A stretch of 64,000 bases of DNA from Apostichopus japonicus. Its lineage: Eukaryota; Echinodermata; Holothuroidea; Aspidochirotida; Stichopodidae. Of the stretch, positions 18,346-46,918 are shown one piece after another. The stretch is taken from NCBI RefSeq assembly GCF_037975245.1, contig NC_092576.1, positions 27,479,611-27,543,610 of the forward strand. Direction: 5' to 3'. Within the stretch, counting starts at the first letter, position 1; every line of letters starts with the position of its first letter. The notes under the pieces were generated by a model. The model did no database searches and had not been told where the DNA came from. It saw nothing but the letters and a program-made list of their open reading frames with translations. A program made the translations under genes and the position numbers.

Positions 18346-18550
18346 CAATGAAAGAGAATCTACAGTCTCGAGTCGACCCTGTGTGTTTCAACGCAACCTT
18401 TTTGGGCTATCATGCTTTTCCCTCTAATTCTTAAAACAGTTTCCTCTCACTCAAAAGGGAGCATCTAGTCAGCAAAAAACCTCCAGATAGGCCCGGCAAG
18501 CAGGACAGCCCTTCTCGACTGCTTTAATCTCATCCCTTTAATCTAATCCC

Positions 18551-21500
18551 TCACACCGATAGAGAGCCTTCCCTGAAGTCTGTTTTTCCGATCAAACAAT
18601 TGACCAGAGCCGGTTTGTTGTTTTTGCTGTCTTCTTTGGCCTTCATTAGTATTTCCCTGATCCCTTCTGTTGTCTCCTCACTGAGACGGTAACCGGTCCC
18701 GCCGTAGCCTATTGCGACTTTGTCATAGTCGCAGAACTGTAGAGGGCGACGAGAGAAGAGCAAACACATATTCAAGAGTTTTCTGATCAGAAAGGTATGT
18801 TAAAAACAAAACTTTGCAAAGGATGTGTTTAATTGTATAATACAGTGCTGGTGAAATTTACTTTACCACCTCACAAAGACTGCTATGTACGTAACGTTGA
18901 GTGGCTTGACTGGTCTGTTAACAAATTGTTGTTATCGGTAAATATTTTCAAAACTTGTGTCTTCTCTTTGACCAGCTGATCGGCATATCGACCACTGGCT
19001 ATTTATCAAAATCCAAACTGAGGCTAAAGAAATGGGTTGTTTAGGGCAGATTAATGAATCGTCACAAGTAACAAGAAGTGGCTTTGTTGTGCCCAAAAAA
19101 AATGTTCAATATTGGTTTGCTGTTATCGGCAACGAGGCTAAATTTTACAAAAAGATACCGATACGCCATCAATGATGCAAATATCGTTGCATACCGACAC
19201 AACACAATCATGGTTCTCATAGGCGTAGGGGGCGGGGGGACTGGGGGGGCTGCAGCCCCCCAACCAATCGGGCAATATGCTGTGAATTTTTTGGGCACCT
19301 ACAGAAAGAAAAGTAATTTGCACTGTGTTTTTCAATGGTTAAACTTATATTATTATTATTATCATTATTATTGTAACGACTTCCCCAATAATTATAACCA
19401 ATATGGAAGGGTAATAACAGGGCAAATGATTGTATGCTATTGGTGTGCGATGTTATAACTGATACATGCCCTAATGATATGCACATTAACATGATGAACA
19501 CCAACCATTCTTCAAGGAAATCTCTACCTCCCCCCACTCCCCGCAAGTGTATGAATGATGAAATATCAATGTCTTTTTTCTCCTCCTGCCAAACTGTTTC
19601 AAAGACAAGACCAGGATGATAATATTGAGAGTGAACTCACCGTCAAGTCACAAGCCACCCTGGTGCTGAAGATCTTTTCTTGGTCTCGTAAGATCTGAGT
19701 CCAGCAGGCGTCGTTGCCAACCACTGCTATGACCGGTATCTTATGTCTACTGAAGGTGTCAAACTCGGCCACGCTGTACCCCAGGGTCCCGTCCCCGTAG
19801 ATGATCCAGACCTCGCAGTCCGGTCGACACAACTTGGCACCGAGAGCGAAACCGCCACCTACTCCCAGAGTGCCAAAGGCTCCCGGGTCCAGCCACTTCA
19901 AGGGTCCACGGGGCCTAGAGGGAAAGAAGGTTAAACGATTTAGGGATACAAAGATTTAGGAATGAAGTAAAACAGAGAATATTATACAGATACTAAACCA
20001 TTACAAACAGGATATCTATGATTGGCTGTTGCTATTGGTTATCGCTTGCGAGAAGATATGAACCCACGTATTATTTGCCGTTTTGTCACTCTGGCAAGCT
20101 ATTGATGGAATCGAAGTAACAGAGTAACAATTTGTGGTTAATAATATGTGCATCCCTTGTGTTGGGAAAATAATAGATATCACTTTCATCAGCTCTGTTT
20201 GGACTAATGTTAAATAATGTAAGAAGGACAATCTTTATAGATTCACTGGCATAAAACACTCAAGACTGTATTGTTGAAGTAACAAGTATATATTTCACCA
20301 TTCAAACCAAGGATGCGTGCATGCAGCTGTTTAATTCAGTTAGAGACGTTTTTATTAGACTGTTCACACCTCTCAACCCACCTCACCTCAAGAAACTACC
20401 CCATGTGAAGATGTTAACTGTACTACCAAATGTGTACACCTAAGTAGACTTGAATAAGCTGAAGTAAGTCCACCTCATCCCCACCTTCAAAGTACAGTAA
20501 CTCCTCTAAGTGTTAACTGTTCTACCTATAACATCAAAGCAAATACTGTTGTGACAATGATTTAGTTGAGACACCACACCACACCCCACCCCACCACAAC
20601 CCCTCCAACCTCAAGTAATTCAATATAACTATTTAAACTTCACTAACTGTGAATCAGACCAAACTAGACTTTACCAACCATACAGTAGAACTCTCTTTTC
20701 CTCTTAATAATTTCCTTCAACACAAGGATGTCAAGAACACACAACCACTGTGCCAACCAAACTAGACTTTACCGACCCTACACAAAACTGTTTCTACTGT
20801 TTATTTCCTCCTACCTGAGGATGTCACTTTATTTCCTCCTACTTGAGGATGTCACTTTATTTCCTCCTACCTGAGGATGTCACTTTATTTCCTCCTACCT
20901 GAGGATGTCACTTTATTTCCTCCTACCTAAGGATGTCACTTTATTTCCTCCTACCTAAGGATGTCACTTTCTCCTACCTGAGGATGTCACTTTATTTTCT
21001 CCTACCTGAGGATGTCACTTTATTTTCTCCTACCTGAGGATGTCACTTTATTTCCTCCTACCTAAGGATGTCACTTTATATCCTCCTACCTAAGGATGTC
21101 ACTTTATATCCTCCTACCTAAGGATGTCACTTTATTTCCTCCTACCTGAGGATGTCACTTTATTTCCTCCTTCCTGAGGATGTCACTTTATTTCCTCCTA
21201 CCTGGGGATGTCACTTTATCGCCTCCTACCTGAGGATGTCACTTTATATCCTCCTACATAAGGATGTCACTTTATTTCCTCCTTCCTGAGGATGTCACTT
21301 TATTTCCTCCTACCTGAGGATGTCACTTTATATCCTCCTACCTAAGGATGTCACTTTATATCCTCCTACCTAAGGATGTCACTTTATTTCCTCCTTCCTG
21401 AGGATGTCACTTTATTTCCTCCTACCTGAGGATGTCACTTTATATCCTCCTACCTAAGAATGTCACTTTATATCCTCCTACCTATGGATGTCACTTTATT

Positions 21501-24500
21501 TCCTCCTACCTGAGGATGTCACTTTATTTCCTCCTACCTGAGGATGTCACTTTATTTCCTCCTACCTGAGGATGTCACTTTATATCCTCCTACCTAAGGA
21601 TGTCACTTTATTTCCTCCTACCTGAGGATGTCACTTTATATCCTCCTACCTGAGGATGTCACTTTATTTCCTCCTACCTATGGATGTCACTTTATATCCT
21701 CCTACCTGAGGATGTCACTTTATATCCTCCTACCTGAGGATGTCACTTTATTTCCTCCTACCTGAGGATGTCACTTTATTTCCTCCTACCTGAGGATGTC
21801 ACTTTATTTCCTCCTACCTGAGGATGTCACTTTATTTCCTCCTACCTGAGGATGTCACTTTATTTCCTCCTACCTGAGGATGTCACTTTATTTCCTCCTA
21901 CCTGAGGATGTCACTTTATTTCCTCCTACCTGAGGATGTCACTTTATTTCCTCCTACCTGAGGATGTCACTTTATTTCCTCCTACCTGAGGATGTCACTT
22001 TATATCCTCCTACCTGAGGATGTCACTTTATTTCCTCCTACCTGAGGATGTCACTTTATTTCCTCCTACCTGAGGATGTCACTTTATATCCTCCTACCTG
22101 AGGATGTCACTTTATATCCTCCTACCTGAGGATGTCACTTTATTTCCTCCTACCTGAGGATGTCACTTTATATCCTGCTACCTGAGGATGTCACTTTATA
22201 ACCTCCTACCTAAGGATGTCACTTTATTTCCTCCTACCTGAAGATGTCACTTTATATCCTCCTACCTAAGGATGTCACTTTATTTCCTCCTACCTGAGGA
22301 TGTCACTTTATATCCTCCTACCTGAGGATGTCACTTTATTTCCTCTTACCTGAGGATGTCACTTTATTTCCTCCTACCTAAGAATGTCACTTTATATCCT
22401 CCTACCTGAGGATGTCACTTTATTTCCTCCTACCTGAGGATGTCACTTTATATCCTCCTACCTGAGGATGTCACTTTATTTCCTCCTACCTGAGGATGTC
22501 ACTTTATATCCTGCTACCTGAGGATGTCACTTTATAACCTCCTACCTAAGGATGTCACTTTATATCCTCCTACCTGAAGATGTCACTTTATATCCTCCTA
22601 CCTAAGGATGTCACTTTATTTCCTCCTACCTGAGGATGTCACTTTATATCCTCCTACCTGAGGATGTCACTTTATTTCCTCCTACCTGAGGATGTCACTT
22701 TATTTCCTCCTACCTGAGGATGTCACTTTATATCCTCCTACCTGAGGATGTCACTTTATTTCCTCCTACCTGAGGATGTCACTTTATTTCCTCCTACCTG
22801 AGGATGTCACTTTATATCCTCCTACCTGAGGATGTCACTTTATTTCCTCCTACCTGAGGATGTCACTTTATTTCCTCCTACCTGAGGATGTCACTTTATT
22901 TCCTCCTACCTGAGGATGTCACTTTATTTCCTCCTACCTGAGGATGTCACTTTATTTCCTCCTACCTGAGGATGTCACTTTATTTCCTCCTACCTGAGGA
23001 TGTCACTTTATTTCCTCCTACCTGAGGATGTCACTTTATTTCCTCCTACCTAAGGATGTCACTTTCTCCTACCTGAGGATGTCACTTTATTTTCTCCTAC
23101 CTGAGGATGTCACTTTATTTTCTCCTACCTGAGGATGTCACCTTATTTCCTCCTACCTAAGGATGTCACTTTATATCCTCCTACCTAAGGATGTCACTTT
23201 ATATCCTCCTACCTAAGGATGTCACTTTATTTCCTCCTACCTGAGGATGTCACCTTATTTCCTCCTTCCTGAGGATGTCACTTTATTTCCTCCTACCTGA
23301 GGATGTCACTTTATCGCCGCCTACCTGAGGATGTCACTTTATATCCTCCTACCTGAGGATGTCACTTTATTTCCTCCTTCCTGAGGATGTCACTTTATTT
23401 CCTCCTACCTGAGGATGTCACTTTATATCCTCCTACCTAAGGATGTCACTTTATATCCTCCTACCTAAGGATGTCACTTTATTTCCTCCTACCTATGGAT
23501 GTCACTTTATATCCTCCTACCTGAGGATGTCACTTTATTTCCTCCTACCTATGGATGTCACTTTATATCCTCCTACCTGAGGATGTCACTTTATTTCCTC
23601 CTACGTGAGGATGTCACTTTATTTCCTCCCACCTAAGGATGCCACTTTATTTCCTCCTACCTGAGGATGTCACTTTATTTCCTCCTACGTGAGGATGTCA
23701 CTTTATTTCCTCCTACCTGAGGATGTCACTTTATTTCCTCCTACCTGAGGATGTCACTTTATTTCCTCCTACCTGAGGATGTCACTTTATTTCCTCCTAC
23801 CTGAGGATGTCACTTTATTTCCATCTACCTGAGGATGTCACTTTATTTCCTCCTACGTGAGGATGTCACTTTATTTCCTCCTACCTGAGGATGTCACTTT
23901 ATTTCCTCCTTCCTGAGGATGTCACTTTATTTTCTCCTACCTGAGGATGTCACTTTATTTCCTCCTACCTGAGGATGTCACTTTATTTCCTCCTACCTGA
24001 GGATGTAAGCTGCGCTGCCTACAAAGTCCCCTCCGTCAGCTACTATGATGCTCTCCTCGTCCATCGCCTCCTCCACCTGGTAGAGGACCTTAAGAGGATT
24101 CAGGAAATGATTCACTTTATCTTCAGCTTTCTTCCTGGAATATTAAAACCAAAATACAGCGATTAACGCTTAAATACGCTAAAAAGTCATCAGGCGCGTA
24201 GCCAAGGGGGGGGGGGGATGGGGTGACTCCCCCTTGAGCATTTTTTTTTGTAAGTTTTTATGATATCCCTAGTAATTTCAAACTAGAAAATGCTTAGATG
24301 CAACTTGCAAGGCCTGGGAAGTGCCATTTTCAGCGATCTGGGAGGCATTTTCGGCCCAAATTTTCTTGTTTGATTCGCGCCAACTCATGGTGGTGACACG
24401 CTTAGATATTGCCCAATGCTGAATCTACGGTTCCGATAATTTGACTACAGGTTCGCCCCTCCCTTGGCAAATTCCTTGCTAAGCGCCTGAAAGTCATCTC

Positions 24501-27500
24501 CTACTGGATGGTAGGGCGGTGCACTGTAAGTTCACAATGCTAAAGGGAACAAATGTCCTTCTGAAAGGACCATGATACCAACAAACTCTATGATTTTTGC
24601 TATGTGGTTTAGTTCTACCCTTCATCTCGGTGCTTTCGTTGATGGATTCATCAGCTTCCACTAGATCGACGCAGATTTTGACGTGGATTTATAACTTGTC
24701 AAGTTGAGAATGTGACAAAAGATTAAAAGGAAGAAACCAGTAATTGTGGTTGATAATGAATTGTGAAAAGTGATTCAGATTACAAATATTTCCGTTTCAA
24801 CTTTTTTTATCTTTGGGATGTTTATATTCAATTTGTATCGCTGTATTAATTGGTACTGTAGTTGCAGTGTGCAAAAAGTAATATGAACACAATATAACCT
24901 CCATTTACTTTTCATTATTTTATAAATGGCAAAACTACACTGGAGACTGCATGTTTAAGGCTAGCTTCATTCATACCGACCACATGGTCTTGTCAACACA
25001 TTCCCATATCTCTCAAAACAGGCAAAACTTTCAAGACAGGCAAAATCAAATTTATATCAAATTTGTATCAACCTTTGAGATCTTGTGAACACATTCAGCC
25101 CATTATTACATCATTATATATGTCACAGTTAAGTATCTCTTTTAGTATCATTTAGTTCATTTTGGTAATTTTAAAACTCATATTTCTTTTCAACGATAAA
25201 AGTTTGAAAAGAGACCTAGGCTCTGACTCGACACTGAACTGAGGAAAAAGTAAAACAGAAGGAAAATACCCAAGAAAGCTGCTGGACATGCAGGCTACCA
25301 AAACTTGAATCACACTTAACAACTCCATTCCCCCCCCCCTCTGACCCCCACCCTTTCATTGAGGCTGTGACCATATGATCATGGTGGTAGCAAGCCAAGG
25401 AAAGTCCTGCAACAGAAGTGAGAGAGTTCCTCTGTGTCTTGGAGCAATTTCAGATATTTTACGGAGTTGACTTACAAGTTCAACGTTTCCTTCTCTTCGT
25501 CTCTGGCCTTCAACGATTGTATCCACTCACTGCTACAGTTGAATCCTGTTAGACCCTTGGATACCTCCAGCAAGAAGGAACCTACATCAGCCTGAACTGC
25601 CAGGGCTGGTCTCCACATGACACCGGCATTCTGAACAACAATAATAACAACAGAAATTAAGATCAATTAAAATTAGACAATTGATTAGAAATTAGAAAAT
25701 TAATATATTAAGAATGAGTTAAGGAAACTGGTAGATTGGCCACAAGAGAGCCAGTTGGGACAATTTCTTCATGCTAATATATAGATAGAAACATGAATAT
25801 TCATACTATATATCTATGTCTCTGAATATGCATAGAGAGTCCTCTAAAACGTAATGAATATGTATATACTTACAAGAAGAAGTTGACTCTTGTTTCTGTT
25901 GACAGCTATGATCTTGGATCGTTTACTGCGTTAAACACACACATGAATAAATATATCTATGTCTCTGAATATGCATAGAGAGTCCTCTAAATGTAATGAA
26001 TATGTATATACTTACAAGAAGAAGTTGACTCTTGTTTCTGTTGACAGCTATGATCTTGGACCGCTTACTGAGCACTTGACCGTAGTTAAGTCTGAAGTCG
26101 GGAACAGCACCTGGGAAGTGGGAGACATTTCAAAAAAGGGGGTTGAATGCCTTGGAAGCACAGCACATAAGTGAACCACTGGTGGAAGGGTTCTCAAATT
26201 CATCACAGATAGGGTCTCATTGGGGGTGCGTGCAGTGCGAGAATGTTACCAGTTAATAGGCTGGGGTAGATAGGTGTGCATAGGTACAGGTCGGTGAGGG
26301 GTGAAGTAAGTCAGAGTAGATACCAATCACTTCACCCAACTGCAGTCATTTTGCTGGTGATTTCTCTGACCGGAATCTGGTCGTCGAATAGTCCGTTTCC
26401 GAATTACCTCAGCAGGAAGAATTTTACAAGGTTCTCCCTATCGTATTACTCTTGATATTCAGAGGTTGGCAAATGCCTTGTCGAAACAATGCAAACACGT
26501 CTCATGAGAAATCAGATTTAAAAAAAACAAGAGAGAAATGCCAAAAGGGTTTTTCAAGAAAAATGTTGAAAAGGAAAGATGACAACCTGACGATAATTTG
26601 CATATTGTATCTACAAGTGATCTGATTTGTTACTGATATACTGATATATACCATTAAACAGTAAACCTTCAAGAATGTTGTAAGTGTACAGGTTTTATAT
26701 TACAACTCCTGCTACAGTCTTAAAATAAGGAAACTTTCAATATCATCTCCAAACCAGCACTTTTGTATGTAGTATATTTTAAGGCACATTTTATATGTAG
26801 TATATTATAAGGCACATTTTATATGTAGCATATTTTAAGGCACATTTTGTATGTAGCATATTTAAATGCACATTTTGCATGTAGCATATTGTAATGCACA
26901 TTTTGTATAGCATATTGTAATGCACATTTTGTATGTAGCATATTGTAATGCACATTTTGTATGTAGCATATTGTAATGCACATTTTGTATGTAGAATTTG
27001 TAATGCACATTTTGTATGTAGTATATATTGTAATGCACATTTTGTATGTAGCATTTTGTAATGCACAGTTTGAATGAAGCATTTTGTAATGCACATTTTG
27101 TATGTAGTATATTTTAACGCACATTTTGTATGTAGTATATTGTAATGCACATTTTGTAAGTAGTATATTGTAATGCACATTTTATATGTAGCATATTGTA
27201 ATGCACATTTTGTATGTAGTACATTTTAATGCACCTTTTGTATGTAGTATATTTTAAGGCACATATTAAATGCAGCATATTTTAATGCACATTTTGTATG
27301 TAGCATATTTCAATGCACATATTAAATGCAGAATAATTTAATGCACATTTTGTATGTAGCATATTGTATTGCACATTTGGTATGTATCATATTGTAATGC
27401 ACAATTTGTATGTAGTATATTGTAATGCACATTTTGTATGCAGCATTTTGTAATGCAAATTTTGTATGTAGTATATTGTAATCAAATTTTGTATGTAGTA

Positions 27501-30500
27501 CATTTTAATGCACATTTTGTAGGTAGTATATTTTAATGCACATTTTGTATGTAGTACATTTTAATGCACAATTTGTATTTTGTATGAAGCATATTTTAAT
27601 GCACATATTAAATGCAGCATATTTTAATGCACATTGTATATGTATCATATTGTATTGCACATTTGGTATGTATCATATTGTAATGCACAATTTGTATGTA
27701 GTATATTGTAATGCACATTTTATATTCAGCATATTGTAACACACATTTTGTATGTAGTACATTTTAATGCACATTTTGTATGTTGCATATTGTTATGCAC
27801 ATGCAATTTATTTTATATATAATTTGTATGTACCATATTGCATATTGTTATGCACATGCAATTTATTTTATATATAATTTGTATGTACCATATTGTATTG
27901 CACATTTTGTATGTATCATATTGTATTGCACATTTGGTATGTATCATATTGTAATGCACAATTTGTATGTAGTATATTTTAATGCACATTTTGTATGTAG
28001 CATATTGTTACTGTATGCACATGCAATATATTTTATATATTTTGTATGTATCATATTGTATTGCACATTTCATATGTATTATATTTTATTGCACATTTTG
28101 TATGTAGCATATTGAAAACTGGTTGTTGTCCCTCACTTTTCAAGACTACAAAATTTTGCACTGATGGTCAGGAAGCAATGACAAGTTTTTAAGGCTCCAA
28201 CAACATGCAATTCGACATACAAAAACCCAAAATTAAGTTGCACTAAACCTCAACGTCGCAATTTTGGCCCAATTTTCAAGGTCATATTTTCTCCAAAGAA
28301 CAAGAGTCGAATCCAAGAGGTGACATGCCGAGAGATACTGAAGATTTGATGATTTGAAAAATGAAAAGTCTACTCACCGGCTAAAATAACCACATCTGCT
28401 TCTTTCAAAGCGTCCCTCCTTCTCTGACGGATATGTAGAGGACTGTTCCTTCCCAGCATGCCTCTGGTCATTCCGCCCAAGAAGCATGGTATACCCATTG
28501 CCTGTTAAGGATTCAAATGTTGAATGTTAATTTTTAGGGGGCGATGCTGCACAGAGTAAATACCAAATAAAAAATAATAACACTTTCTCAATTTTTTTCT
28601 CCAAAATTGTTTCTCCCATTTTTGGTGACATTGCATGCGTGTTAACACACGTGTGTGAAAAATGAACGTCACCTCTAGTGCTTTCCTGAGCTCGTCGACT
28701 GGAGTTGGAGGTAAGGTGGCTTGACTACCGAGGATGATAAGAGGTTTCTTCGCACGACTGACTAATTCTACAGCTTGCTGTACTGTAAAGATAGAAAAAG
28801 GAAATGAGTATGTGAATGTCTATAGTTCAACACTCTGATTTATCCTAACTTTATATATCAATACTACTGACTGACTAATTCTACAGCTTGCTGTACTGTA
28901 AAGATAGGGAAAGAAATGAGTATGTGAATGTCTATAGTTCAACACTCTGATTTATCCTAACTTTATATATCAATACTACTGACTGACTAATTCTACAGCT
29001 TGCTGTACTGTAAAGATAGGAAAAGAAATGAGTATGTGAATGTCTATAGTTCAACACTCTGATTTATCCTAACTTTATATATCAATACTACTGACTGACT
29101 AATTCTACAGCTTGCTGTACTGTAAAGATAGGGAAAGAAATGAGTATGTGAAAGTCTATAGTCCAACACTCTGATTTATCCTAACTCTATATATCAATAC
29201 TACTGACTGACTAATTCTACAGCTTGCTGTACTGTAAAGATAGGGAAAGAAATGAGTTTGTGAAAGTCTATAGTCAAACCCTCTGATTTATCCTAACTCT
29301 ATATATCAATACTACTGACTGACTAATTCTACAGCTTGCTGTACTGTAAAGATAGGGAAAGAAATGAGTATGTGAAAGTCTATAGTCCAACACTCTGATT
29401 TATCCTAACTCTATATATCAATACTACTGACTGACTAATTCTACAGCTTGCTGTACTGTAAAGATAGGGAAAGAAATGAGTTTGTGAAAGTCTATAGTCA
29501 AACCCTCTGATTTATCCTAACTCTATATATCAATACTACTGACTAATTCTACAGCTTGCTGTACAGTAAAGATAGGGAAAGAAATGAGTATGTGAAAGTC
29601 TAGAGTCCAACCCTCTGATTTATCCTAACTCTATATATCAATACTACTGACTGACTAATTCTACAGCTTGCTGTACTGTAAAGATAGGGAAAGAAATGAG
29701 TTTGTGAAAGTCTATAGTCAAACCTTCTGATTTATCCTAACTCTATATATCAATACTACTGACTGACTAATTCTACAGCTTGCTGTACTGTAAAGATAGG
29801 GAAAGAAATGAGTATGTGAATGTCTATAGTCCAACCCTCTGATTTATCCTAACTCTATATATCAATACTACTGACTGACTAATTCTACAGCTTGCTGTAC
29901 TGTAAAGATAGGGAAAGAAATGAGTATGTGAATGTCTATAGTCCAACCCTCTGATTTATCCTAACTCTATATCAATACTACTGACTGACTAATTCTACAG
30001 CTTGCTGTACTGTAAAGATAGGGAAAGAAATGAGTATGTGAATGTCTATAGTCCAACCCTCTGATTTATCCTAACTCTATATATCAATACTACTTTAAAA
30101 GGTCGATATTTTTGGGCTCTGCTAATATATTTTCCAGAGACTTGGTTTATCGGCAGAAGCAAGAGGAAAGTGCTCGCTTGGAGCGAGGCCAGTGAATAAA
30201 TTAATTCCTGCCATATCTGAATAACTCTAGGACTTCTCTGAATTTGCAAGATAAGGTAATATATCAAAGAAGGCATCTAAAAACAAGCTGATGTCGCCCT
30301 CAACTTTGATGTCGCCCTCAACTTATAATACAAGCCCTTCTCAGCTTAGCCAATTCGGCTTAATACCACAGCGTCTGTACCCATCATAAAGCATTGTTCG
30401 ATACAGGTGTCAAAAAGGTTTCGAACCTCTAGGCATACAATCAGTGTCCATAGCCTAGCCTGGTTAGGGTGTCCACATATAAAGTGGAAGGCCCGGGTTC

Positions 30501-33500
30501 GAATCCCGGTGGAGGCTGGAAGGTTTTTCCACTGTTCTGGATTTTCCAACTAATTACAATTGCAACTATATATATATATATACATATCTATATTTATCCT
30601 CTGATTAATCGCATTAACAGCTCCTTAAGCTGTAAGATAAGCCTTAACAGTGGGGTTATTCACAACTGGAAAACTACATTTTGTTGCAATCTAAGAACAC
30701 CGATAAACATGTCAGCTTGATCAAGGGCACCATACAAACAAAAGTAGTTCACATCAAACGTTGGAAAGAGCCAACAGTACCCTCAGAGGTTAAAAAGCTG
30801 GCATCCACTACTTTAAAATTTCAAAGCCCCCCCTGCAACCCCCTCCCTCCCCATACCCCTTCCACACCCTGATTTCTACCTTGAGATATCATGGCAGATC
30901 AGTGTTATGATAATTAATAGAAAATAAAAATTAGAAAATAAACCCAGTTGAAAAGATTTAGTGACTTGTTTAAGGTGCAAAATTCGACTTTGGAGAAGTG
31001 TCGGCTTTACCTTGGCCCGATGAAGCCATTGGTCTCTTGACAGGCAGAGGACCGTACTCCCTCAGTTCGAAACCGCCGGCGAATATGTTACCTACTAGAG
31101 ACATAGTGTACCTGGAAGAGGAATAGATAAAAAAAAATGTAAAATGTCAGTATTTTGGAGCACTTTTTAATATAATTATGCTGTGTAAAAGTGTACGTGG
31201 TTTTGTCAATGCCTATCACTGACTGCCAAAACACCTGTGTAAAGTGTGCATGGTTTGTTAATGCCTATCACTGACTAAACACCTGTGTAAAGTTTGCATG
31301 GTTTTGTTAATGCCTATCACTGACTACCAAACACCTGTGTAAAGTTTGCATGGTTTTGTCAATGCCTATCATTGACTACCAAAACACCTGTGTAAAGTTT
31401 GCATAGTTTTGTTAATGCCTAACACTGACTACCAAAACACCGATGTAAAGTGTGAGTGGTTTTGTTTAAATGCCTATCATTGACTACCGAAACACCTGTG
31501 TAAAGTGTGCGTGGTTTTGTCAATGCCTATCACTGACTGCCAAAACACCCGTGTAAAGTGTGCATGGTTTTGTTTAAATGCCTATCACTGACTACCGAAA
31601 CACCTGTGTAAAGTGTGAGTGGTTTTGTTAATGCCTATCACCGACTCCCAAAACACCTGTGTAAAGTGTGCGTGGTTTTGTCAATGCCTATCATTGACAA
31701 CCAAAACACCTGTGTAAAGTGTGAGTGGTTTTGTCAATGCCTATCATTGACTACCAAAACACCTGTGTAAAGTGTGAGTGGTTTTGTTAATGCCTATCAT
31801 TGACAACCAAAACACCTGTGTAAAGTGTGAGTGGTTTTGTCAATGCCTAACACTGACTACCAAAACACCTGTGTAAAGTGTGAGTGGTTTTGTCAATGCC
31901 TATCACTGACTGCCAAAACACCCGTGTAAAGTGTGCATGGTTTTGTCAATGCCTATCATTGACTACCAAAACACCTGTGTAAAGTGTGAGTGGTTTTGTC
32001 AATGCCTATCATTGACTACCAAAACACCTGTGTAAAGTGTGAGTGGTTTTGTTAATGCCTATCACTGGCGACCGAAACACCTGTGTAAAGTGTGAGTGGT
32101 TTTGTTAATGCCTAACACTGACTACCAAAACACCTGTGTAAAGTGTGAGTGGTTTTGTCAATGCCTATCATTGACAACCAAAACACCTGTGTAAAGTGTG
32201 AGTGGTTTTGTCAATGCCTATCATTGACTACCAAAACACCTGTGTAAAGTGTGAGTGGTTTTGTTAATGCCTATCACTGGCGACCGAAACACCTGTGTAA
32301 AGTGTGAGTGGTTTTGTTAATGCCTAACACTGACTACCAAAACACCTGTGTAAAGTGTGAGTGGTTTTGTCAATGCCTATCACTGACTGCCAAAACACCC
32401 GTGTAAAGTGTGCATGGTTTTGTTTAAATGCCTATCACTGACTACCGAAACACCTGTGTAAAGTGTGAGTGGTTTTGTTAATGCCTATCACCGACTCCCA
32501 AAACACCTGTGTAAAGTGTGCGTGGTTTTGTCAATGCCTATCATTGACAACCAAAACACCTGTGTAAAGTGTGAGTGGTTTTGTCAATGCCTATCATTGA
32601 CTACCAAAACACCTGTGTAAAGTGTGAGTGGTTTTGTTAATGCCTATCACTGGCGACCGAAACACCTGTGTAAAGTGTGAGTGGTTTTGTTAATGCCTAA
32701 CACTGACTACCAAAACACCTGTGTAAAGAATGTGCTCTTCCCTGTAGGTGTCATATTATCTGGCACAGGAATTTCCCCCCGTAAATAAGCGTGTCTTTAG
32801 TTTACAATTGATTTCCTGGTTGCAAATATTGTAAGACTTGTTAAAATAAAGTTATTCCACACTATTTGTGGAACATCCCTTCTCAATATCGTGTTCCTGA
32901 CTTGAAATTTGGTTGATTGAATGTGACCTATTTTGACTGGCTAAACCTTCAAAGTTTTACTCCACCAGGAAGTTAGATCATACTAGTAGGTCTGTGGTGC
33001 CATCTGGGCAATTGTTCTTTGAAAGCTCTGATGAGTCTATCATAATCTTCTAGTTGGTTTATCCTTGAAAGCTGATACATTTTGAATGCTTGCCTAGCTG
33101 ACAATGTGCTCAACATATTAAAAGTCTGTATAGATGTATATTTTTGGTTGACATATTCTTTCATCTGTGGATAATTGATTGAAATATTATACAGAAAAAC
33201 AAGGGCATTTTCCCTTAAAATTGCCCTGCTGATATTGTTCATTCTGCTGTTGCCAGATGCAATCTACAGAATATCACAAAATTTTGAGAAAATATTCATA
33301 ACTTCACAAAAAAAATTAAAAATCCTATGAGAATCTGTTTAAAAAAAAAAATTACCCAGAATATTATCAGCAACTCGGCTGTTGCAACCAAACTTCAGCC
33401 ACCAGAAAATCTTTCTAATGTTACCTTTGTTTTTAAAAAATCCTTCTATGCCGTCCCTCTGCCATTTCTACATTAAATAAAATGCTATGAGAATGCTTCT

Positions 33501-35016
33501 CTTTTTTTATGCTTATTTTTTGGGCCATAATATACTAAGAATAATATTCCCTGAAGACAGTGAATATGTTATAATCCGAACGGTGACATGTTTCTAAACG
33601 TCAAAAACCAACTACAAACAAAGATTTACAGTCAAATACTGTATCATTTAACTGTAGATGTGAGCACTACAAAACAACATGTTACCATAGATACGGTAGT
33701 GATGCATTTGAGTTCACTATTGATGAGATTATGGTTCAATACTGTATCATTAAACTGTAGATGTGAGCACTACAAAACAACATGTTACCATAGATACGAT
33801 AGTGAGGCATTTGAGTTCACTATTGATGAGACTATGGTTCAATACTGTATCATTAAATTGTAGATGTGAGCACTACAAAACAACATGTTACCATAGATAC
33901 GATAGTGAGGCATTTGAGTTCCCTATTGATGAGATTATGGTTCAATACTGTATCATTTTAAACTGTAGATCTAACTTCCTGTGTTTATCAACCGCTCTTT
34001 GGGAATTACGCCAATATTTGACAATGAGCGTTAATATTTCTATTGTCTTTTTCATTTTTTGGCAGTTTACTTTTCAGAGATTATTAAAACAATGTTGATC
34101 AATTTATCAATAGTATAAATACATCAAAACAGCTGGCCCTCAAAAGTATACACGTTTACCTACACAGGCTTTTTCGTATTAAGTACGACCTACTGTAAAT
34201 TAAGCAGTTCAAGCAATCAAGTATTAATTTCTTTGGCTTTGAAAATATCCGCTGTAATTTGGAAAGCTTCTTGTTTGTGTAGGGATTTATGCAAAGGAAG
34301 TTGTATTGTTTTCTCACATAGAATGAAATGCAATTTCTCTCTGACATACAGTACTGTATTCTTACAATTAATTGACAAAAAAAGGTGTTTTTTTCCCCTT
34401 CTTCTTCTGCTTCATTCTTTAAGATGCATATCTACATTAATCTGCATTTTAATGCAACATCACAATGCACTGTGTATTCATTTCTCTAATGCATAATCAT
34501 TATGCATATATACAGTATATGCATAATAAAAATGATGCATATATATATTCATATCAATTGATAAAGTACCACCAAAATCATTCACTCCCTCTCTAAGATA
34601 TTATCCATGGCAAATATTCTTGTTTGTGAAGTATATATACATGCGTGGGAAGTGTTCTTATTTCTGGTTCAAGGAAATGCCCTTTTTCGATACGCTACAT
34701 GCTTACAACTAAAGCTAACTACTGTACTGTACTGTACTGAACATGGTGATAAGGCGGTCCTACTTATCACTCCACTCACATGTTGACAATTTTACTCATT
34801 AAATCTCCTTTTGGTGAGTTCAATTCGGCCCCCTTCAGTACGTGCTGGTAGTCGTAGAGGACGTCAATGGGGAACTCAACGAATACTGGACCTGGAAGTA
34901 TAAATGTTATGAGTTATATAGATATATATATATATGTATATACATAAATACATATATATATATATATATCTATATATATATATATCTATATATATATATC
35001 TATATATATATATATA

Positions 35017-35053
<37 letters not shown>

Positions 35054-35299
35054 ATTGAATGTGTAGCAAGTGGTACGACAGATATATAGTAAATCAATAA
35101 AGAATAACACACCAGAAAAATTCCACTTCACGACCTGTTTCGTCCTTTTGGGACACATCAGGCGAAGGTACCTTCGGGCTTAGGTTTGTGACACGAAGAT
35201 CCAGGGTTCGATTCCTACCTTCGCCTGATGGGTCCCAAAAGGACGAAACCGGTCGTGAAGTGGAATTTTTCTGGTGTGTTATTCTTTATTGATTTACTA

Positions 35300-35342
<43 letters not shown>

Positions 35343-38300
35343 TATATATAAAACAAAGTTTCATTTTGATTTATTTCACACCATAATACAAAAGACAATA
35401 CAAGACACCTTGACAATACAGGTCACATGGTCTAGGGTTGACACAGAAAAGTCTGTCCAGCAGACTCATGTCCACTGTGGTCCCTGTACATACAAACCAA
35501 TAATACATAAAGAGAAGTTGGAATGCCTAGCAGCATATATAGAAACACACTAGTCTCGCCTTTGTGGGAAACATTTGTTATGATGTGGGTGGCCAAATTC
35601 CAACTCAACCTCATTGCTAAATTTATGTCTTGTCCGATCAGATCCGTGGAAATGGTTAAAGCACTGCTGCTATTGACAATTTCAGACCACCTTGTATAAT
35701 ATACTAAATGTTGTTGGAAGGACCTAAAGGTAAAGCACGGTTTTTTATGAAAGGTTTGTTAATGTACCCTGGATGGTCATGTCAGCTGACAAAAGAGAGG
35801 CCATATCTGGAGTAATTTGGTAAGCTCATACTGGCAGTACAGACAGGTATTAACCCAGTCACTATTTCCTGTATTTACAGTAAGTAGAATGCAGTCACTA
35901 CTGCACATATGGGATAGTGTCACGTGTGTGACAGCTCAGAGCAGGAAATAGTCACTGCCTGTTGTTGCCAGGCTCACAATCATTAGCCACTGGCATAAAA
36001 TAATTAGCCAGTGCATAACAAGTCTACTTGATATAAGCAACAACTCTCTAGAGCTGGCATATTCCTTGAATTATTAAAATACAAAAGCGACATTTGACTG
36101 TTCTGACAGAAAAAAACGTTAGAGCATTTTTTTTTATTTATTCATTTTTTATTTAATTTCGCCTTAATTTTGAGGCCAGCGTGTCACAAACTCTGCAGGA
36201 CAGGCTGGACAGTCACCATGTGACAGTACAACACAATCAGGTACAAACTATTGTACACACTATAGTCACTCAGTGCAGGAGGATACTGTACATTCAATAT
36301 GATGACAGCTGAAGGATACAGTCACTGTGTGACAGTTGACATCTGAAGGATACAGTCACTGTGTGACAGCTGACATCTGAAGGGTACAGTCACTGCGTGA
36401 CCGCTGACATCTGAAAATGCAGTCACTGTGCGACAGCTGACGGATACAGTCACTGTGTGACAGCTGACATCTGAAGGATACAGTCACTGTGTGACAGCTG
36501 ACAGCTCAGACAGGAAAGCAGTCACATTGTGACTGCACCAAAGTCAGAGCTACCAGAAGTTAATATCACAAATGTTTAGATCCTATTTAACACAAAATCT
36601 TAAAATTTGGTGTTGGGGGTTTGTTAATGAACTTAAATACAAGAATGTGACTGACTTGACATCAATAACTAAATATTCATAAGTTTAACCTAATTTTACA
36701 TACCTGGCGTATCAGACTGGGCCACCCGTATGGCCTCCCTCAAGACTGGGGCGATATCTCGGACGGTTTGGACCGCTGCGCAAAACTTGCAGAGCGGTTT
36801 AAATAACGACATCTGATCTATATCTTGGAGGGTACCTTGACCCTGAAAATGAAGGATATATCAACTTTACAGATATAAGGGCATACTGTACAATGATCTC
36901 TCTCCCTGATTAAGGAACATTTTGCAATGAAGCTTTGAGCAACACGATGTGTCCCCCCCCCCCCCCCCGTTTCATCTGAACTCCATAAAGGGGAGGCAGA
37001 TTTAAAGCATCAGGTACAGTAGGGTGGGAGGGAGGGAGGGAAAATCCACTTTTTTATCCCAACATTTTGACTTTTGAGATAAAAAAACCCAAATTTTTGC
37101 ACCTCCTATTTCAACGAAGAGTCTACACAGCAGGCTGTGATTAATCAGGACGGTGATGATAATTTTGTTAAAATCTGCTTTTGAAAAATATCGTAAACTG
37201 CAAACTCTGCACAGATTGTCTTTATGTGAACACTTTGGTGTCGTACCCTAAAATATTACGCAGCACACAAATAATTATTAACAACATTTTGCTTGTAAAA
37301 GCACCATTGCTCACTCAATCCCCCCCCCCCCATTAAGACCCTAGGTCTGGTATACTGTATACATACATTTTGTACTGTTTGTTTCTTGGTTGGGGGAGGG
37401 GGGATCATGGAAACCAGTTTGTGTCCACAGCAGAACCATAAACCATTGTATGCAAACCCCCTTCAACTACTGTAGGCCTACACATGTCCCTATTCCCAGT
37501 TAGCTTACAAGTGTTTATGAAGACAAGCAGACATCACCCTAGAGTCCTATTGTCCAACTGTACTGTACAGTAGTTCAACACTCATCCCATTCGTGTTTTT
37601 TTTTCCTCTCCCTTTCAGATATCTCCAACTGCACCTGTGTAGCTGTAGATAGTCCACCCATTCTGTACGTGGCTTGGGGTCATATTCACTCCAGCAGGAA
37701 GCATAGACCTACACTAAGATATTATTGAGCTTGCCCATATGACCTACAGTACTGTAGGTTCAATTGGCTAAACTGGTGTCTAAGAAAGTTCTTTCTTTAC
37801 CGTACGGTACAGTGTCGACCCCGTTGTAGTACTGGCCACCTACTGTGAAGACCCTACAATACAGTATAATGCCATACAGTATGTACAATGTCTACCACTT
37901 TGTAGCATTGGCCCCCCCCCCCCGTATTGTGAGATGACTACAATACAGTACAGTTGCCATACAGTACAATGTTGACCACGTTGTACATATTGATGGCCCC
38001 CTACTGTGAAAATCCTACAATACAGTATAATGTAGACCATGTTGTATTGGCCCCCTACTGTGAAAAGCCTACAAATACAGTATAATGTCGAACATGTTGT
38101 ATTGGCCCCCTACTGTGCAAAGCCTACAATAGAGCATTATCCTGATCATGAAAATTTGGTTCCCATGAATGTCCCATCTACGGCGATGTCGAGAAGTGTT
38201 TTGAGAAACAGCAGTGCTGACTACGAGATGGCAGATGAAGGAAGCGGATCATAAGGCCCCGATGTGGGGGTTAATCGGGGGGGGTGTTTGCTTTTTGTGG

Positions 38301-41300: not shown

Positions 41301-44300
41301 CCTCCCTCTACACTCTCCTAATGAAGAATAAAGAAAAACAGGGATTACATTTGGCGAATTTGAAAACACTTTTTTCTTCTCGCATAATAATACATGTATG
41401 GCGGCAAACGTTACTTGGCTTTGCAAGGAGTCTGCCTTACCATGACGACCTATTAAGGCCCGGTCACACTATACCGATTTTTTATCAAAATGCTATCCGA
41501 TTTTTCCCTAGGAACCAGTTTTTCGTTCGGGTCTTCTAGCCACTGTGATAAAGGACCTGATTTGCTATCTGTTGAGCCATTCCGATGTGGAATTAGCCCT
41601 CTCCTAACTTTTGATATTGACTCTGTTTCCTTTTATCGGATAGCTATCCGATTTCTCTTCCGATTTTTATCGTTTTTCGATGTGACGTCACTTTAGAATG
41701 TAGTCCGTTCCAGATCTGGAGTAGGTTTTCGAATATTCCACTGCAGTCATTACATTCACTACCACAAACCTCACTCTTCGACCTATAATCGGAAAAATCG
41801 GACTGTTTTCCGATAAAATATCGCTGTAGTGTGACCGGGCCTTTACCGTGGCTTACCTCATGTCTCGTGTTTATCACTCGGATGCCTTCTCTCTCCGCTG
41901 CGACGTTAATCGGTGAAATGTGACCTCCGCATAGCGTAAAGAGGAACTTGACCCCATGAGCTTTCAGAACCTCAGCCACGATGTCACCTCCATTACTCTT
42001 GCTGTTTACAGCAGGCTATGAAAATATGAAAAAAGCAAATTATTATGAAATGTGATTGCAAACTGAGGGGAGAAAGGGGAAGGGGGGAAGGAGGGGATGG
42101 GAGGGGAAGGAGGGGATGGAAAGATGAAGGTGAGGGAGGGGCAGGGATGTGGGGTTTTGAATGTAATGTGGTACTTGACCCCATGAACTTTCAGAACCTC
42201 AGCCCAAGGGTTGAAATAAGCGGGCGCCCAGGCGCTATTCGCGCCCGCAAGCACTAAAATAGCGCCCCTGGACATGAAAATACAATACGCACAGGTGCTA
42301 CTTTGTCAGCAAATAAGCGCCCGCATACTCCTGTAAATATCAGCCTTATCATGCACTGCACCGAAGCCTGAAACTACATTGCATGCTAGTGCTATATAGT
42401 AACTGCTAGCGATTTGATAAATCACTGATCGATCGAGTGCGTGCACAATAGCACTGGTGCACATGGTTTACTGTATATATCGCACAACACCTGTACTGAT
42501 ACGTACATACATGCCGTACTTGAATTTTGTTTCTCCTTTTTAGCTCCTGGTAGTGAGAAAATAGCTCCTGGTCCTACTGAAATTTCCACGAACCAGGAGC
42601 CACTTTCTTAGAAAGTGGCTCCTGGTCCAGAAATCCTTATTTTAACCCTTGCCTCAGCCACGATGTCACCTCCATTACTCTTGCTGTTTACAGCAGGCTA
42701 TGAAAATATGAAAAAAGCAAATTATTATGAAATGTGATTGCAAACTGAGGGGGAAGGAGGTGATGGGAGGGGAAGGGAGGGGAGGGATGAAAGGTGGTGG
42801 AGGGGCAGGGATGGGGTTTTGAATGTAATGTGGTCCATGTCATCTTTCACTTGCAGAAAGAGCCAATAAGTTGATAACAATTTGAAGTGAGCTCTAATTA
42901 TTCACTCCCCAGCTTAACTTTGCTCCCATAGTCAGTGACTCGTTGATTTGATATAATATTATCAATATATAGCTTAAGTTCAAGGATTGCTCGGTGCTTG
43001 TATACATAGGTAGAGATAACACATGTTGGAAAGCCTGAGATATCGTGGTACACTAAAATAAGGCTAGTATACTGTAACGTTGTAGCATTGCATGGGCATG
43101 AGCCCTGGCAAATGAATCCCAGTTTGTGTAGTGCAAAGCTTCAATGTAAACTAAACACAGTGTTTAAAAGCTAATAACTTATATAGGGAGTTACTGCAGA
43201 ATACCACTCTTGGAACGGTATAGTTTGTACGGCTTAGCCACCTACGCAGTCACTCATTTGGGGCAAATATTTTTCAGAATGATGCATCACTACAATTTGT
43301 TGTCTGTACTGTACATGCATAAGTACCATACAAAGAATGTAGTAATATTGTAGGCCTCTAGGCTAGCACTAGGTTTTTGCACTAAATAAAAGCCTTGAAA
43401 AGTATCTTGTGTGACTGCACATGGGGCATAGGCTCTTTAGGCTGGCATTTACTGAAACAAAATATATCTCAAGGACTTCAAGAGAGTTTTCAGTGTACTG
43501 TAGCTACCTTGATAACAAGAATTAAGTACAGTAGTGTAAATTTAAAAATTTAACAGTTCCTTGGGCAGTTAAAGTAACAGTGTGTACTGTAACAACATAG
43601 CTGGATGCAAGGTGAAGTTAAATTATAGTTGCAGAGTACTCTGCAATTGCGATTCACGGAATTCTTTTCTCAAACTTCTGACCTACGCTTGGGTATAAGT
43701 TTATAACGTCTATTCAGGGCATAAAGTAGGCATAGGTGTCAACTACTGTACACTACCATAGTACCAGTAGACACTATGAAGCCGAGCTTAATAGCGAGCG
43801 TAACGAATCATCTCTAACAGTTAGGCTATACTATAATAGTTAGGCTAGATGTTCACAGCCGACACATTGCTGTGTACTACTGCGTTCCGTATTCACTATC
43901 AGACCTGTTCATTATAATTGACAAGTAGAAAAAATGACTTAACGTTAAACGAATTTTTACTATACACTTTAGCCTAAAGTTTGTTAGAGTCGAACCACAT
44001 TGATCTAATCGAAACAAAGTGAACGCAACGTTACAAATTTCAGGAAGTATTGTGATGGTACTGTATGTCCTTCAAAGCGTGCGACATTGAGCAACAATCC
44101 CTGATAATATATGCAATATCGCTATGCTCAACGAAAACTTGAAGAATAAATGTACAAATGATAATGCAAAAAAAGTATTTAATAACTAACGGGATGGAAG
44201 AATTGATAGATTATACTATATTTATGAGCAGCAAAGGCAATTGCTGCTAAAAGAAGCAAAACGACCGTTCCAATCGTGTACAGAAGCACTTCCACAATCG

Positions 44301-44304
44301 CCAT
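18551..44304 (-). CDS. ILVBL: ILVBL (HACL2), thiamine-diphosphate 2-hydroxyacyl-CoA lyase-like protein, complete
   Basis: Thirteen coding exons in transcript order: 44304-44191, 42015-41857, 38517-38347, 36842-36704, 34891-34780, 31111-31011, 28782-28673, 28501-28378, 26110-26016, 25630-25476, 24134-23997, 19914-19641, 18736-18551. Every junction is GT-AG and in phase, giving 625 aa; the human protein is about 630. In mammals ILVBL cleaves 2-hydroxyacyl-CoA in the ER during fatty-acid alpha-oxidation. Residues 1-28 form a hydrophobic N-terminal anchor. The TPP-activating glutamate is Glu91 (NTRHE, at the end of exon 2). The central domain includes [13 protein letters not shown] and VVILAG. 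The TPP/Mg site is GDG at 513-515 with Asn540. The C-terminus is [13 protein letters not shown]. Two usually Gly positions are Cys: GPCLTN (Cys118) and GNDACW (Cys543). The introns carry large tandem arrays, several including copies of its splice sites. Confidence 0.95.
20800..24006. repeat. 28-bp minisatellite (about 114 copies) carrying the exon 11 splice donor
   Basis: The unit on the plus strand is close to 'ttatttcctcctacctgagg' followed by 'atgtcact'. It fills most of ILVBL intron 11 and runs into exon 11: its last unit overlaps 23997-24006. Read on the transcript strand, each unit contains 'acatcctcag|gtaggagg', the last ten bases of exon 11 plus its donor. Common variants swap 'tttcc' for 'tatcc' and 'tgagg' for 'taagg'. 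The array evidently grew from the exon-intron junction. Confidence 0.97.
24191..24489. mobile_element. non-autonomous hAT-type element, 299 bp
   Basis: Ends are 'caggcgcgtagccaagg' and the near reverse complement 'ccttgctaagcgcctg'. It is flanked by the 8-bp direct repeat 'aaagtcat' (24183-24190 and 24490-24497), typical of hAT insertion. It has no coding capacity and closely resembles the element at 47412-47709. It lies in ILVBL intron 10, about 57 bp from the exon 11 acceptor. Confidence 0.9.
25808..26063. repeat. partial duplication of ILVBL exon 9 with its splice donor
   Basis: Two copies of about 113 bp (25808-25921 and 25952-26063) share intron sequence, the donor and the 3' half of exon 9. 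The real exon is 26016-26110. The extra copy holds only the 3' part of the exon (about 25875-25921) and its donor, and lies downstream of the real exon in the transcript. Confidence 0.9.
26760..28112. repeat. 27-28-bp AT-rich minisatellite in ILVBL intron 8
   Basis: About 45-50 imperfect copies of a unit like 'tgcacattttgtatgtagca' plus 'tattgtaa'. The second half has insertions (for example 'tgcaatttattttatatata' twice at 27798-27880). Long open frames on either strand are by-products of the period and lack of stops. Unlike its neighbours, this unit carries no ILVBL exon sequence. Confidence 0.95.
28763..30095. repeat. 112-bp tandem array carrying the ILVBL exon 7 splice acceptor
   Basis: Twelve copies of 'acagcttgctgtactgtaaag' in context, about 112 bp apart, including the real exon 7 border at 28770-28790. 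Read on the transcript strand, each unit has a pyrimidine tract (tttctttccctatctttacag) and about 27 bases of exon 7 start. The eleven decoys all precede the true acceptor in the transcript. Extending the exon through a unit meets an in-frame TAG. Confidence 0.96.
30418..30580 (+). mobile_element. tRNA-derived SINE, copy 1 (ILVBL intron 6)
   Basis: The head has a Pol III A-box-like 'tagcctagcctggttaggg' and a B box 'gggttcgaatcccgg' with a fully paired T arm. The body then matches the other copies ('ccactgttctggattttcc') and ends in (TA)n. Copies at 44450 and 48287 share head, body and tail, so this is a SINE family, not a tRNA gene. Confidence 0.85.
31181..32737. repeat. 53-bp minisatellite, about 29 copies, with higher-order structure (ILVBL intron 5)
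   Basis: The unit contains 'gtgtaaagtgtgagtggttt' followed by 'tgtcaatgcctatcactgac' and 'taccaaaacacct'. It begins about 70 bp from the exon 6 acceptor. A run of variant units near 31529-31800 recurs about 850 bp later near 32379-32650 in the same order, showing block duplication of about 16 units. On the transcript strand each unit carries 'acacag|gtgttt', a weak donor-like site. Confidence 0.95.
33634..33968. repeat. 103-bp tandem repeat, about 3 copies (ILVBL intron 5)
   Basis: Units starting near 33634, 33738 and 33839 each run from 'aatactgtatcatt' through 'gagcactacaaaacaacatg' to 'attatggttc'; a partial fourth ends at about 33968. No exon sequence is included. Confidence 0.9.
34915..35050. 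repeat. (TA)n microsatellite
   Basis: Almost pure TA/TATC repeats starting about 25 bp upstream of the exon 5 acceptor of ILVBL. Open frames through it are compositional. Confidence 0.95.
35082..35304. mobile_element. fold-back element with 89-bp arms and a tRNA-like loop
   Basis: Arms 35082-35170 and 35216-35304 are near-perfect reverse complements (for example 'aattccacttcacgacc' against 'ggtcgtgaagtggaatt'), around a 45-base centre. The centre holds a B-box-like 'agggttcgattcc', and the innermost arms (ggcgaaggta / taccttcgcc) could pair like a tRNA acceptor stem. (TA)n tracts flank both ends. It is in ILVBL intron 4 and would form a very stable RNA hairpin. Confidence 0.85.
35299..35348. 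repeat. (TA)n microsatellite flanking the fold-back element
   Basis: A short TA run abutting the right arm of the fold-back element, mirroring the run at 34915-35050. Confidence 0.9.
36280..36540. repeat. 34-bp tandem repeat with internal palindromes (ILVBL intron 4)
   Basis: About seven copies of a unit containing 'acagtcactgtgtgacagct' and 'gacatctgaagga'. Each has the inverted pair GTCAC-tgt-GTGAC. Looser relatives of the motif occur at 35880-35960. Confidence 0.85.
37808..38130. repeat. degenerate 60-75-bp tandem repeat (ILVBL intron 3)
   Basis: Five to six imperfect units, each with 'gttgta', 'ggcc(c)cctactgtg' and 'cctacaatacagtataatg'. The open frames here are by-products of the repetition. 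Confidence 0.75.
39917..40012. repeat. about 21-bp tandem repeat (ILVBL intron 2)
   Basis: Four to five copies of 'tattttacacaggaaccagg' with small changes. Confidence 0.85.
40146..40560 (+). mobile_element. second tRNA-derived SINE family (ILVBL intron 2)
   Basis: The head has an A-box-like 'gtggtcaagtggtaaaagg' and a B box 'ggtttgagtcctggcc'. It is followed by the widely dispersed body motif 'tgtccttgggcaaggcactc'. The 3' limit is uncertain. It differs in head and body from the SINE at 30418, 44450 and 48287. Confidence 0.75.
41457..41841. mobile_element. MITE with GGCCCGGTCACACT ends, beside the exon 2 donor
   Basis: Terminal inverted repeats 'ggcccggtcacacta' and 'tagtgtgaccgggcc' bound 385 bp with no coding frame. 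The flanks are TTAA on the left (41453-41456) and TTTA on the right (41842-41845), which could be a decayed 4-bp TTAA duplication as in piggyBac-like elements. The right end is 10 bp from the ILVBL exon 2 donor (41851-41856). Confidence 0.8.
41951..42832. repeat. tandem duplication of the 5' part of ILVBL exon 2
   Basis: Unit 1 (about 41951-42167) holds the 5' part of true exon 2, its acceptor and intron 1 sequence ending 'gaatgtaatgtgg'. Unit 2 (about 42168-42832) repeats all of it but is interrupted by the 447-bp element at 42205-42651. The second acceptor is near 42670 and precedes the real one in the transcript. Residues still match ([11 protein letters not shown]) before the copy ends. 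Confidence 0.92.
42205..42651. mobile_element. non-autonomous hAT-type element, 447 bp
   Basis: Ends 'caagggttgaaataag' and 'ccttattttaacccttg' are inverted copies, flanked by the perfect 8-bp duplication 'cctcagcc' (42197-42204 and 42652-42659). It contains 'gcgcccgc' and 'agctcctggt' motifs but no coding frame. It sits inside the duplicated copy of exon 2. Confidence 0.9.
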
Positions 44305-44449: not shown

Positions 44450-44609
44450 TTTCGAACCTCTGGACATACAATCAGCGTCCATAGCCTAGCTGGTTAGGGT
44501 GTCCACGTACAAAGCGGGAAGCCCGGGTTCGAATACCGGTGAAGGCTGGAATTTTTTCACTGTTCTGGTTTTTCCTTCTCATTACGTTTTCATTTATATA
44601 TATATTCAT
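44450..44609 (+). mobile_element. tRNA-derived SINE, copy 2
   Basis: Same family as 30418-30580: leader 'tttcgaacctctggacatac', A box 'tagcctagctggttaggg', B box 'gggttcgaataccgg', body with 'cactgttctgg', and a short (TA)n tail. It lies about 145 bp upstream of the ILVBL start codon and may overlap its promoter or 5' UTR. Confidence 0.85.
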
Positions 44610-46217: not shown

Positions 46218-46760
46218 GAAGTGGTTAAGGATTTGTCATCCAACTTGACCAGAGCATCTAGAAATGATATTTGATGTTTAGAAACTTCGGCAGAAAATTT
46301 AATGCTGCCATGAAAAGAATTAACATGATCAAAGAAAGACTTAAGAGATTCTTCACCATGTGGCCAGACAAAAAATAAATCGTCAATGTATTTATAAAAG
46401 CCTGTTGGCTCTAGAGATAGCATTTCCTTTTCCAATGCGTGCATAAATGTGTTGGCGTAACATGGTGCCGTCTTAGTGCCCATGGCGGTACCATTGATTT
46501 GGAGATAATATTTCCCATTAGAAGAGAAATAATTATTACTTAATATGAAACGTAAAATAGGACCAACATCATCAGCTAAAGTGTGGTTGGTGGCATACTT
46601 ACGAAGAAAATGAGGGATATTAGTGTACGAAGAGGATGCGTCAGTGGTAACAAGTAAGGAATTAATCGGTAACCGTCTGAATTGTGTAAAGAATTCTCCA
46701 AAAAATGAGTAGTGTCCTGTATATAAGAAGGAACATGGCTTAATAAAGTTAATAAGGGTT
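46218..46760 (-). mobile_element. Penelope-like reverse transcriptase fragment
   Basis: The minus-strand frame contains LLVTTDASSSYTNIPHFLRK, INGTAMGTKTAPCYANTFM and the catalytic YIDD box (YKYIDDLFFVW), then ISFLDALV. This order and the GTKTAP/YIDD pair are hallmarks of Penelope-like element RT. It continues in frame into 44863-45216 across the hAT-type insertion. The 5' side is truncated near 46760. Confidence 0.9.
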
Positions 46761-46918
46761 GAGTATGGAGTCTATGTATATATCTGTAATCTAGTTGTGT
46801 TTTAAATTAGTTCTTGACATTGGAAGTAAATAAGAAACATTTCGCTGCCAACAAATTATGGTTTCTCCTACATGACAGTAAAATCGATTACGTATTGATT
46901 GGTTTGTATATAATTGTA

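Follow-up and report, generated by a model that had tools for sequence, protein, structure and literature searches.

Tandem arrays spanning splice borders at four exons of an ILVBL-like gene in Apostichopus japonicus are probably silent minisatellites of the mirage type

The ILVBL-like gene of Apostichopus japonicus carries spare copies of its own splice borders, which raises the question of how they arose and whether they do anything. The gene lies in a stretch of 64,000 nucleotides (NCBI RefSeq assembly GCF_037975245.1, contig NC_092576.1, positions 27,479,611 to 27,543,610 of the forward strand), which we call the window and within which all positions are counted. With approximately 115 near-identical donors in series at one exon, the gene offers a natural setting in which to ask how one border is chosen among many by the spliceosome, and whether U1 occupancy or exon definition decides the choice.

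The gene model shows GT-AG borders in all 12 introns, and its coding sequence of 1878 nt forms a single open frame of 625 amino acids. A pseudogene is ruled out by this intact frame. The Pfam domains TPP_enzyme_N, TPP_enzyme_M, and TPP_enzyme_C are all present in the product, and its translation has a hydrophobic stretch at approximately residues 4-26. When the product was compared with PDB sequences, the top match was a 2-hydroxyacyl-CoA lyase, and oxalyl-CoA decarboxylases also appeared among the best 60 of 144 matches. By sequence similarity, these matches would fit the name ILVBL, which is a label taken over from the original prediction and was supplied by no search result here. Tandem arrays occupy 35% of the gene bases, compared with 0.6% in the 18.5-kb flank and 10% in the 19.7-kb flank on the other side. 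The first 18.5 kb of the window, which contains plexin-like and LRR exons, holds 113 array bases in total. Weak Sema and TIG-plexin domain matches at 3489-8859 (minus strand) mark a portion of the plexin-like gene, where tandem arrays are nearly absent. A 76-bp piece of an LRR-protein frame at 13373-13448 (plus strand) has a second copy 412 bp downstream, at 13785-13860, with an identity of 91%. On the other side, six copies of a 137-bp unit with 95% matches are located at 45351-46178, about 1 kb upstream of the ILVBL-like start codon, and a reverse transcriptase fragment is located at 46172-46771 (minus strand).

Table 1. Positions in the window of the ILVBL-like gene, of the exons with border copies, and of the arrays and insert within the gene.
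Feature	Position	Strand	Description
ILVBL-like gene (2-hydroxyacyl-CoA lyase / acetolactate-synthase-like TPP enzyme)	44304-18551	minus	13 exons, start to stop codon
Exon 11	23997-24134	minus	real donor at low end, CAG/GTAGGA
Exon 9	26016-26110	minus	gene model
Exon 7	28673-28782	minus	gene model
Exon 2	41857-42015	minus	gene model
Exon 11 donor array	20800-24006	minus	28 bp x 114.9 (TRF); runs from 24006 down to 20800; real border at 23997
Exon 7 acceptor array	28756-30094	minus	112-bp unit, 12 copies including real border at 28782
Exon 9 donor duplication	25808-26070	minus	142-bp period, 2 copies; decoy donor after 25874
Exon 2 acceptor duplication	41936-42858	minus	original period ~227 bp; decoy acceptor just before 42697
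Element inside exon 2 decoy copy	42205-42651		447 bp; inverted ends CAAGGGTT; 8-bp target-site duplication CCTCAGCC
Intron 8 array	26757-28114		28/56-bp unit; no exon BLAST match inside, not border-derived
Intron 5 array	31181-32728		53-bp unit, ~29 copies; no exon BLAST match inside

All 13 exons with 60-bp flanks were compared with the window by BLAST (E 0.001), a threshold at which copies of less than approximately 20 bp may go undetected. Matches covering exon bases were obtained for exons 2, 7, 9, and 11 only. Exon 5 gave 260 matches, every one of which fell in its flank, a TA repeat, and the remaining eight exons gave zero matches. When the tandem units were aligned to their nearest exons, they matched the borders of exons 11, 7, 9, and 2. 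Together, BLAST and the alignments confirmed the original prediction that four of the 13 exons have tandem copies including the exon border. The exon 11 unit consists of the final 10 exon nt and 18 intron nt. Wrap-around alignment resolved this array into 115 copies of 27 unit types, with the real border as the first copy, a number that slightly corrects the approximately 114 copies predicted at this donor. GT is retained in 109 of the 115 copies. The exonic portion of the exon 7 unit is 27 nt, and AG is retained in 11 of 12 copies. The exonic portions of the exon 9 and exon 2 duplications are 55 and 80 nt, and the decoy GT and the decoy AG, respectively, are intact. At these three sites, the counts predicted earlier (12 copies at the exon 7 acceptor, two at the exon 9 donor, and two at the exon 2 acceptor) were borne out together with their exon numbers and coordinates. 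The exon 2 duplication was found by BLAST and is absent from the TRF output. Its decoy copy comprises two pieces, 42163-42204 and 42652-42752, separated by the 447-bp insert; 101 bp are identical to the real border region, after which the insert interrupts the copy. The inverted ends and the 8-bp target-site duplication of this insert may point to a hAT element.

The gene also holds repeats that are unconnected with exon borders. The units of introns 8 and 11 are both 28 bp long; kinship between them was rejected, as 0 of 112 exon 11 BLAST matches lay beyond the exon 11 array. The intron 5 array begins 70 nt upstream of exon 6, and many of its units read CACACTTTACACAG on the sense strand, which resembles an acceptor. 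A single 20-base version of this sequence recurs exactly 17 times; its pyrimidine fraction of 0.65 is one that real acceptors of the gene also span. In intron 4, a type I hammerhead ribozyme was detected at 35126-35167 (minus strand) with 34.4 bits (gathering 34), and inverted copies flanking it at approximately 35090-35300 were spotted by eye. A hammerhead ribozyme between inverted repeats is typical of Penelope-like elements. Three tRNA-like copies in the window (30443-30518, 44474-44548, and 48314-48388) have approximately 160-205 bp in common at about 86% identity and probably represent a tRNA-derived SINE family. Intron 2 contains a 32-bp inverted repeat (41455-41486 / 41812-41843, 91% identity), which may represent the two termini of a small element.

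We consider it probable that the four border arrays are mirage-type minisatellites with silent decoys. In passages of PMC3087553 and PMC3902484, mirages are border-spanning minisatellites in the lancelet genes Adh3, the globins BflGb6 and BflGb9, troponin C, and PGBD5. In the ILVBL-like gene, four exons are accompanied on their intron side by short, border-straddling tandem duplications, two of which are now long arrays (115 and 12 copies). Each site would have started when a single local tandem duplication reached 10 to 80 nt into the exon, and slippage and unequal exchange would have led to growth or shrinkage. The coding sequence is untouched by such a duplication because only a spare intronic border is added. 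The splicing machinery would be expected to stay with the copy nearest to the exon, since the exon is defined jointly with its other splice site. If the exon-nearest copy keeps being used, the spare borders would be silent and would drift neutrally. Judged from the genomic sequence, the decoy borders are most likely silent, and their tolerance via exon definition is plausible; the arrays most likely have no function of their own. The mirage reading is supported by the unit-to-border alignments, the intact coding frame, and the array-rich gene. The decoys also look neutral, as the GT columns vary like the others and the exon 2 decoy took a transposon-like insert.

Column differences in the exon 11 array affect 2.6% of copies at GT, 2.8% at other intronic positions, and 3.9% at exonic positions. 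Selection against decoy donors was rejected because the GT columns vary no more than others, and selection for them was rejected because GT is kept no better than other columns. The test is weak in both directions, since the six GT-less copies carry one identical change and may go back to a single event. Arrays acting as pseudo-exons or recursive splice points were also rejected. The pyrimidine tract before the CAG of the donor array is poor (median 0.41 in 113 gap-free copies), and three copies reach at least 0.53, which is the lowest value among the real acceptors. The best of 95 GTs in the exon 7 array pairs with U1 at -4.9 kcal/mol, and 11 of the 12 real donors are stronger. Because the decoy arrays offer mainly one site type, a complete pseudo-exon is hardly on offer.

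A rival reading is that the decoys are used. In this case, a share of transcripts would take a decoy, meet a premature stop, and undergo nonsense-mediated decay, and the arrays would lower or tune the output of the gene. All 108 exon 11 decoys with GT lead to a stop at codon 474, because TAG is the first complete codon beyond the real border. At exon 7, an early stop follows from each of 11 copies, of which 10 have AG, and the single decoys of exons 9 and 2 behave likewise, so that every decoy tested would end the frame early. The stops precede the last junction by 298-3452 nt for exon 11 and by at least 616 nt for exons 7, 9, and 2, and stops at such distances trigger nonsense-mediated decay in animals. 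Considering that decoy use gives an early stop in a decay-triggering position, a working gene must mostly use the exon-proximal borders. However, the stops are unremarkable as evidence for decoy use, because nearly any intronic extension meets a stop. The strength of the decoys argues for their use and against silence. In U1 pairing, 75 exon 11 decoys are at least as good as the real exon 11 donor (-10.7 kcal/mol; 76 of 115 copies including the real one), and such a crowd would be expected to compete. Against a background that omits the exon 11 array only, none of 1324 other intronic GTs pairs as well as this donor. Silence is also opposed by decoy exons shorter than 300 nt, sizes that exon definition permits; these arise from the GT-bearing exon 11 decoys numbered 1, 2, 4, and 5, from one exon 7 decoy, and from the exon 9 decoy. 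The exon 2 decoy exon is 841 nt long and would be 386 nt without the 447-bp element. Weighing against decoy use, GT is not preferentially preserved in the exon 11 array, and passages of PMC3087553 and PMC3902484 report lancelet mirages without splicing disturbance. Accordingly, we regard decoy use as unlikely.

In a further rival reading, the exon 11 array might serve as a U1-binding platform, in which each unit offers a strong 5' splice site and, just downstream, a poly(A)-signal-like hexamer that bound U1 would silence, and array length would set early termination in intron 11. The shielding of intronic poly(A) signals by U1 is established (e.g., PMC5499120 and PMC6946686). The array contains 75 AATAAA and 34 TATAAA, and one or the other is found just downstream of the donor in 109 of 115 units; the rest of the gene has 10 AATAAA and 19 TATAAA on the sense strand. 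However, a single AATAAA present by chance in the first unit would be co-amplified without any function, which is the simpler account. Downstream of the hexamers (107 sites), U is 0.19 versus 0.30 in the gene background and GU is 0.46 versus 0.50, and this U-poor, not GU-rich sequence makes the poly(A) sites look weak. We therefore consider a U1 platform very unlikely. It is also barely credible that assembly created the arrays or exaggerated their length. Assemblies often give tandem arrays the wrong size, and the lancelet record includes such cases: passages of PMC3087553 describe the BflGb6 mirage as aberrantly assembled in the genome draft, and passages of PMC3902484 describe PGBD5 repeat numbers that vary among assemblies. 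An artefact is nevertheless opposed by four distinct units at four exons, by the clean 8-bp duplication around the insert in the exon 2 copy, and by the 27 copy types of the exon 11 array with their diverged internal block repeat. When the exon 11 array was shifted against itself, 75 units was the best of 100 shifts, with 18 of 40 positions matching versus approximately 20% expected. Such a match would be expected if unequal exchange had duplicated a block that then diverged, and a simple assembly echo would not give it.

The mirage reading accounts for the fate of the decoys, and a separate matter is whether four seeds at the borders of one gene exceed chance. The unit of each of 17 gene arrays was placed randomly in the gene, and border-spanning seeds were counted. 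This set leaves out a TRF row at 18522-18551, which touches the stop codon and no splice border, and the TA repeats at 34915-35049 and 35298-35350. The exon 2 duplication entered the set through its BLAST matches, and rows 42075-42120 and 42756-42815 inside that duplication were counted separately. Four border-spanning seeds were observed versus 0.67 expected (nominal P 0.0025), and 12 variants of the test gave 0.55-0.69 expected (nominal P 0.0009-0.0028). Stricter counts, both computed from the rounded probabilities of the main test, gave three observed versus 0.51 expected when exon 2 was dropped (P 0.011) and two observed versus 0.30 expected for arrays of at least three copies (P 0.03). 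All of these P values are nominal because the gene was chosen for showing the border pattern. At the nominal level, the results support an excess of border-spanning arrays over random placement within the gene, and this part of the earlier interpretation stands.

Neutral tolerance alone does not account for this nominal excess. The alternative is that some seeds of an array-rich gene landed on borders without any bias; this concerns seeding only and is compatible with the mirage reading. It draws strength from the exceptional array content of the gene within the window, from the fact that two of the four border cases are just two-copy duplications, and from the post hoc choice of the gene, since approximately 25 per 10,000 comparable genes would reach P 0.0025 by chance. 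It is opposed by the P values of all variants and stricter counts, and by border arrays that recur in several unrelated lancelet genes according to passages of PMC3087553 and PMC3902484. Chance placement is thus quite possible, although we lean slightly away from it; the four hits on borders may reflect either a mild seeding bias or chance in an array-rich gene. If a border seeding bias is true, it would provide raw material for intron gain. A bolder proposal would make exon borders hot spots of tandem duplication in this lineage, shown four times in ILVBL, and would add that the 115-copy donor array may serve as a U1 platform, so that the number of units governs how often transcripts end prematurely at the 109 units with a hexamer; we find this proposal improbable.

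The original prediction had also regarded the repeated seeding of splice sites in one gene as undescribed to its knowledge. This claim fails, as lancelet mirages are in print, PGBD5 with two arrays among them, in passages of PMC3087553 and PMC3902484. PGBD5 and the other lancelet cases indicate that the kind was already known, including more than one array per gene, and this record limits the surprise. Judged by titles and abstract beginnings, these two papers were the only ones on the subject found under the word "mirage", and among the matches listed for echinoderm terms nothing useful appeared beyond the lancelet PGBD5 paper (PMC3902484). A literature search on VNTRs and duplicated splice sites gave no matching paper. 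Passages of PMC3087553 give mirage units of 10-72 bp for Adh3 and 150-160 bp for the globins, with AG/GT kept in many, not all, copies. They also report copy numbers that vary between haplotypes, somatic instability of Adh3, and, from Adh3 data and the authors' RT-PCR, splicing that is left undisturbed. In PGBD5, arrays of 60 bp and 108 bp with 2-7 copies occupy two borders of one gene, and normal splicing was inferred by the authors without mRNA (passages of PMC3902484). The troponin C mirage is cited in PMC3902484, and a 2002 Adh paper and a 2007 study of tandem arrays as a source of human introns are cited in PMC3087553.

Other systems share single features with the ILVBL-like arrays. In the potato RdRp intron gain (PMC4974935) and in the proto-splice-site model of Rogers (cited in PMC3087553), a border-crossing tandem duplication likewise supplies spare splice signals. 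In those intron-gain systems a new intron is spliced, whereas the ILVBL-like coding model needs no copy. A good pyrimidine tract or a strong partner site is missing from the array units, and the frame requires no such intron. Human segmentally duplicated genes (PMC2812944) are similar in that minisatellites expand inside genes; headings of that paper name altered gene structure and protein sequence.

The closest comparison is with the amphioxus mirages, in which, according to the same passages, the tandem unit also spans the exon-intron border, donors and acceptors are both affected, and many copies retain AG/GT. The ILVBL-like units of 28, 112, and 142 bp fall within the mirage range of 10-160 bp, and the exon 2 unit of approximately 227 bp exceeds it. 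The published mirage hosts described there are all cephalochordate. Some lancelet mirages are known also from splicing and haplotype data, and the ILVBL-like arrays are known from the genomic sequence of one haplotype. The amphioxus copy numbers given are 2-7, with no figure for Adh3 and troponin C in the passages, whereas the ILVBL-like gene has four affected borders and one array of 115 copies. Compared with the cases described in these sources, the ILVBL-like arrays are a known phenomenon that is extreme in number and length. What stands out is the presence of four arrays in one gene, the length of 115 copies, and a unit in which a hexamer of poly(A) type accompanies a strong U1 site.
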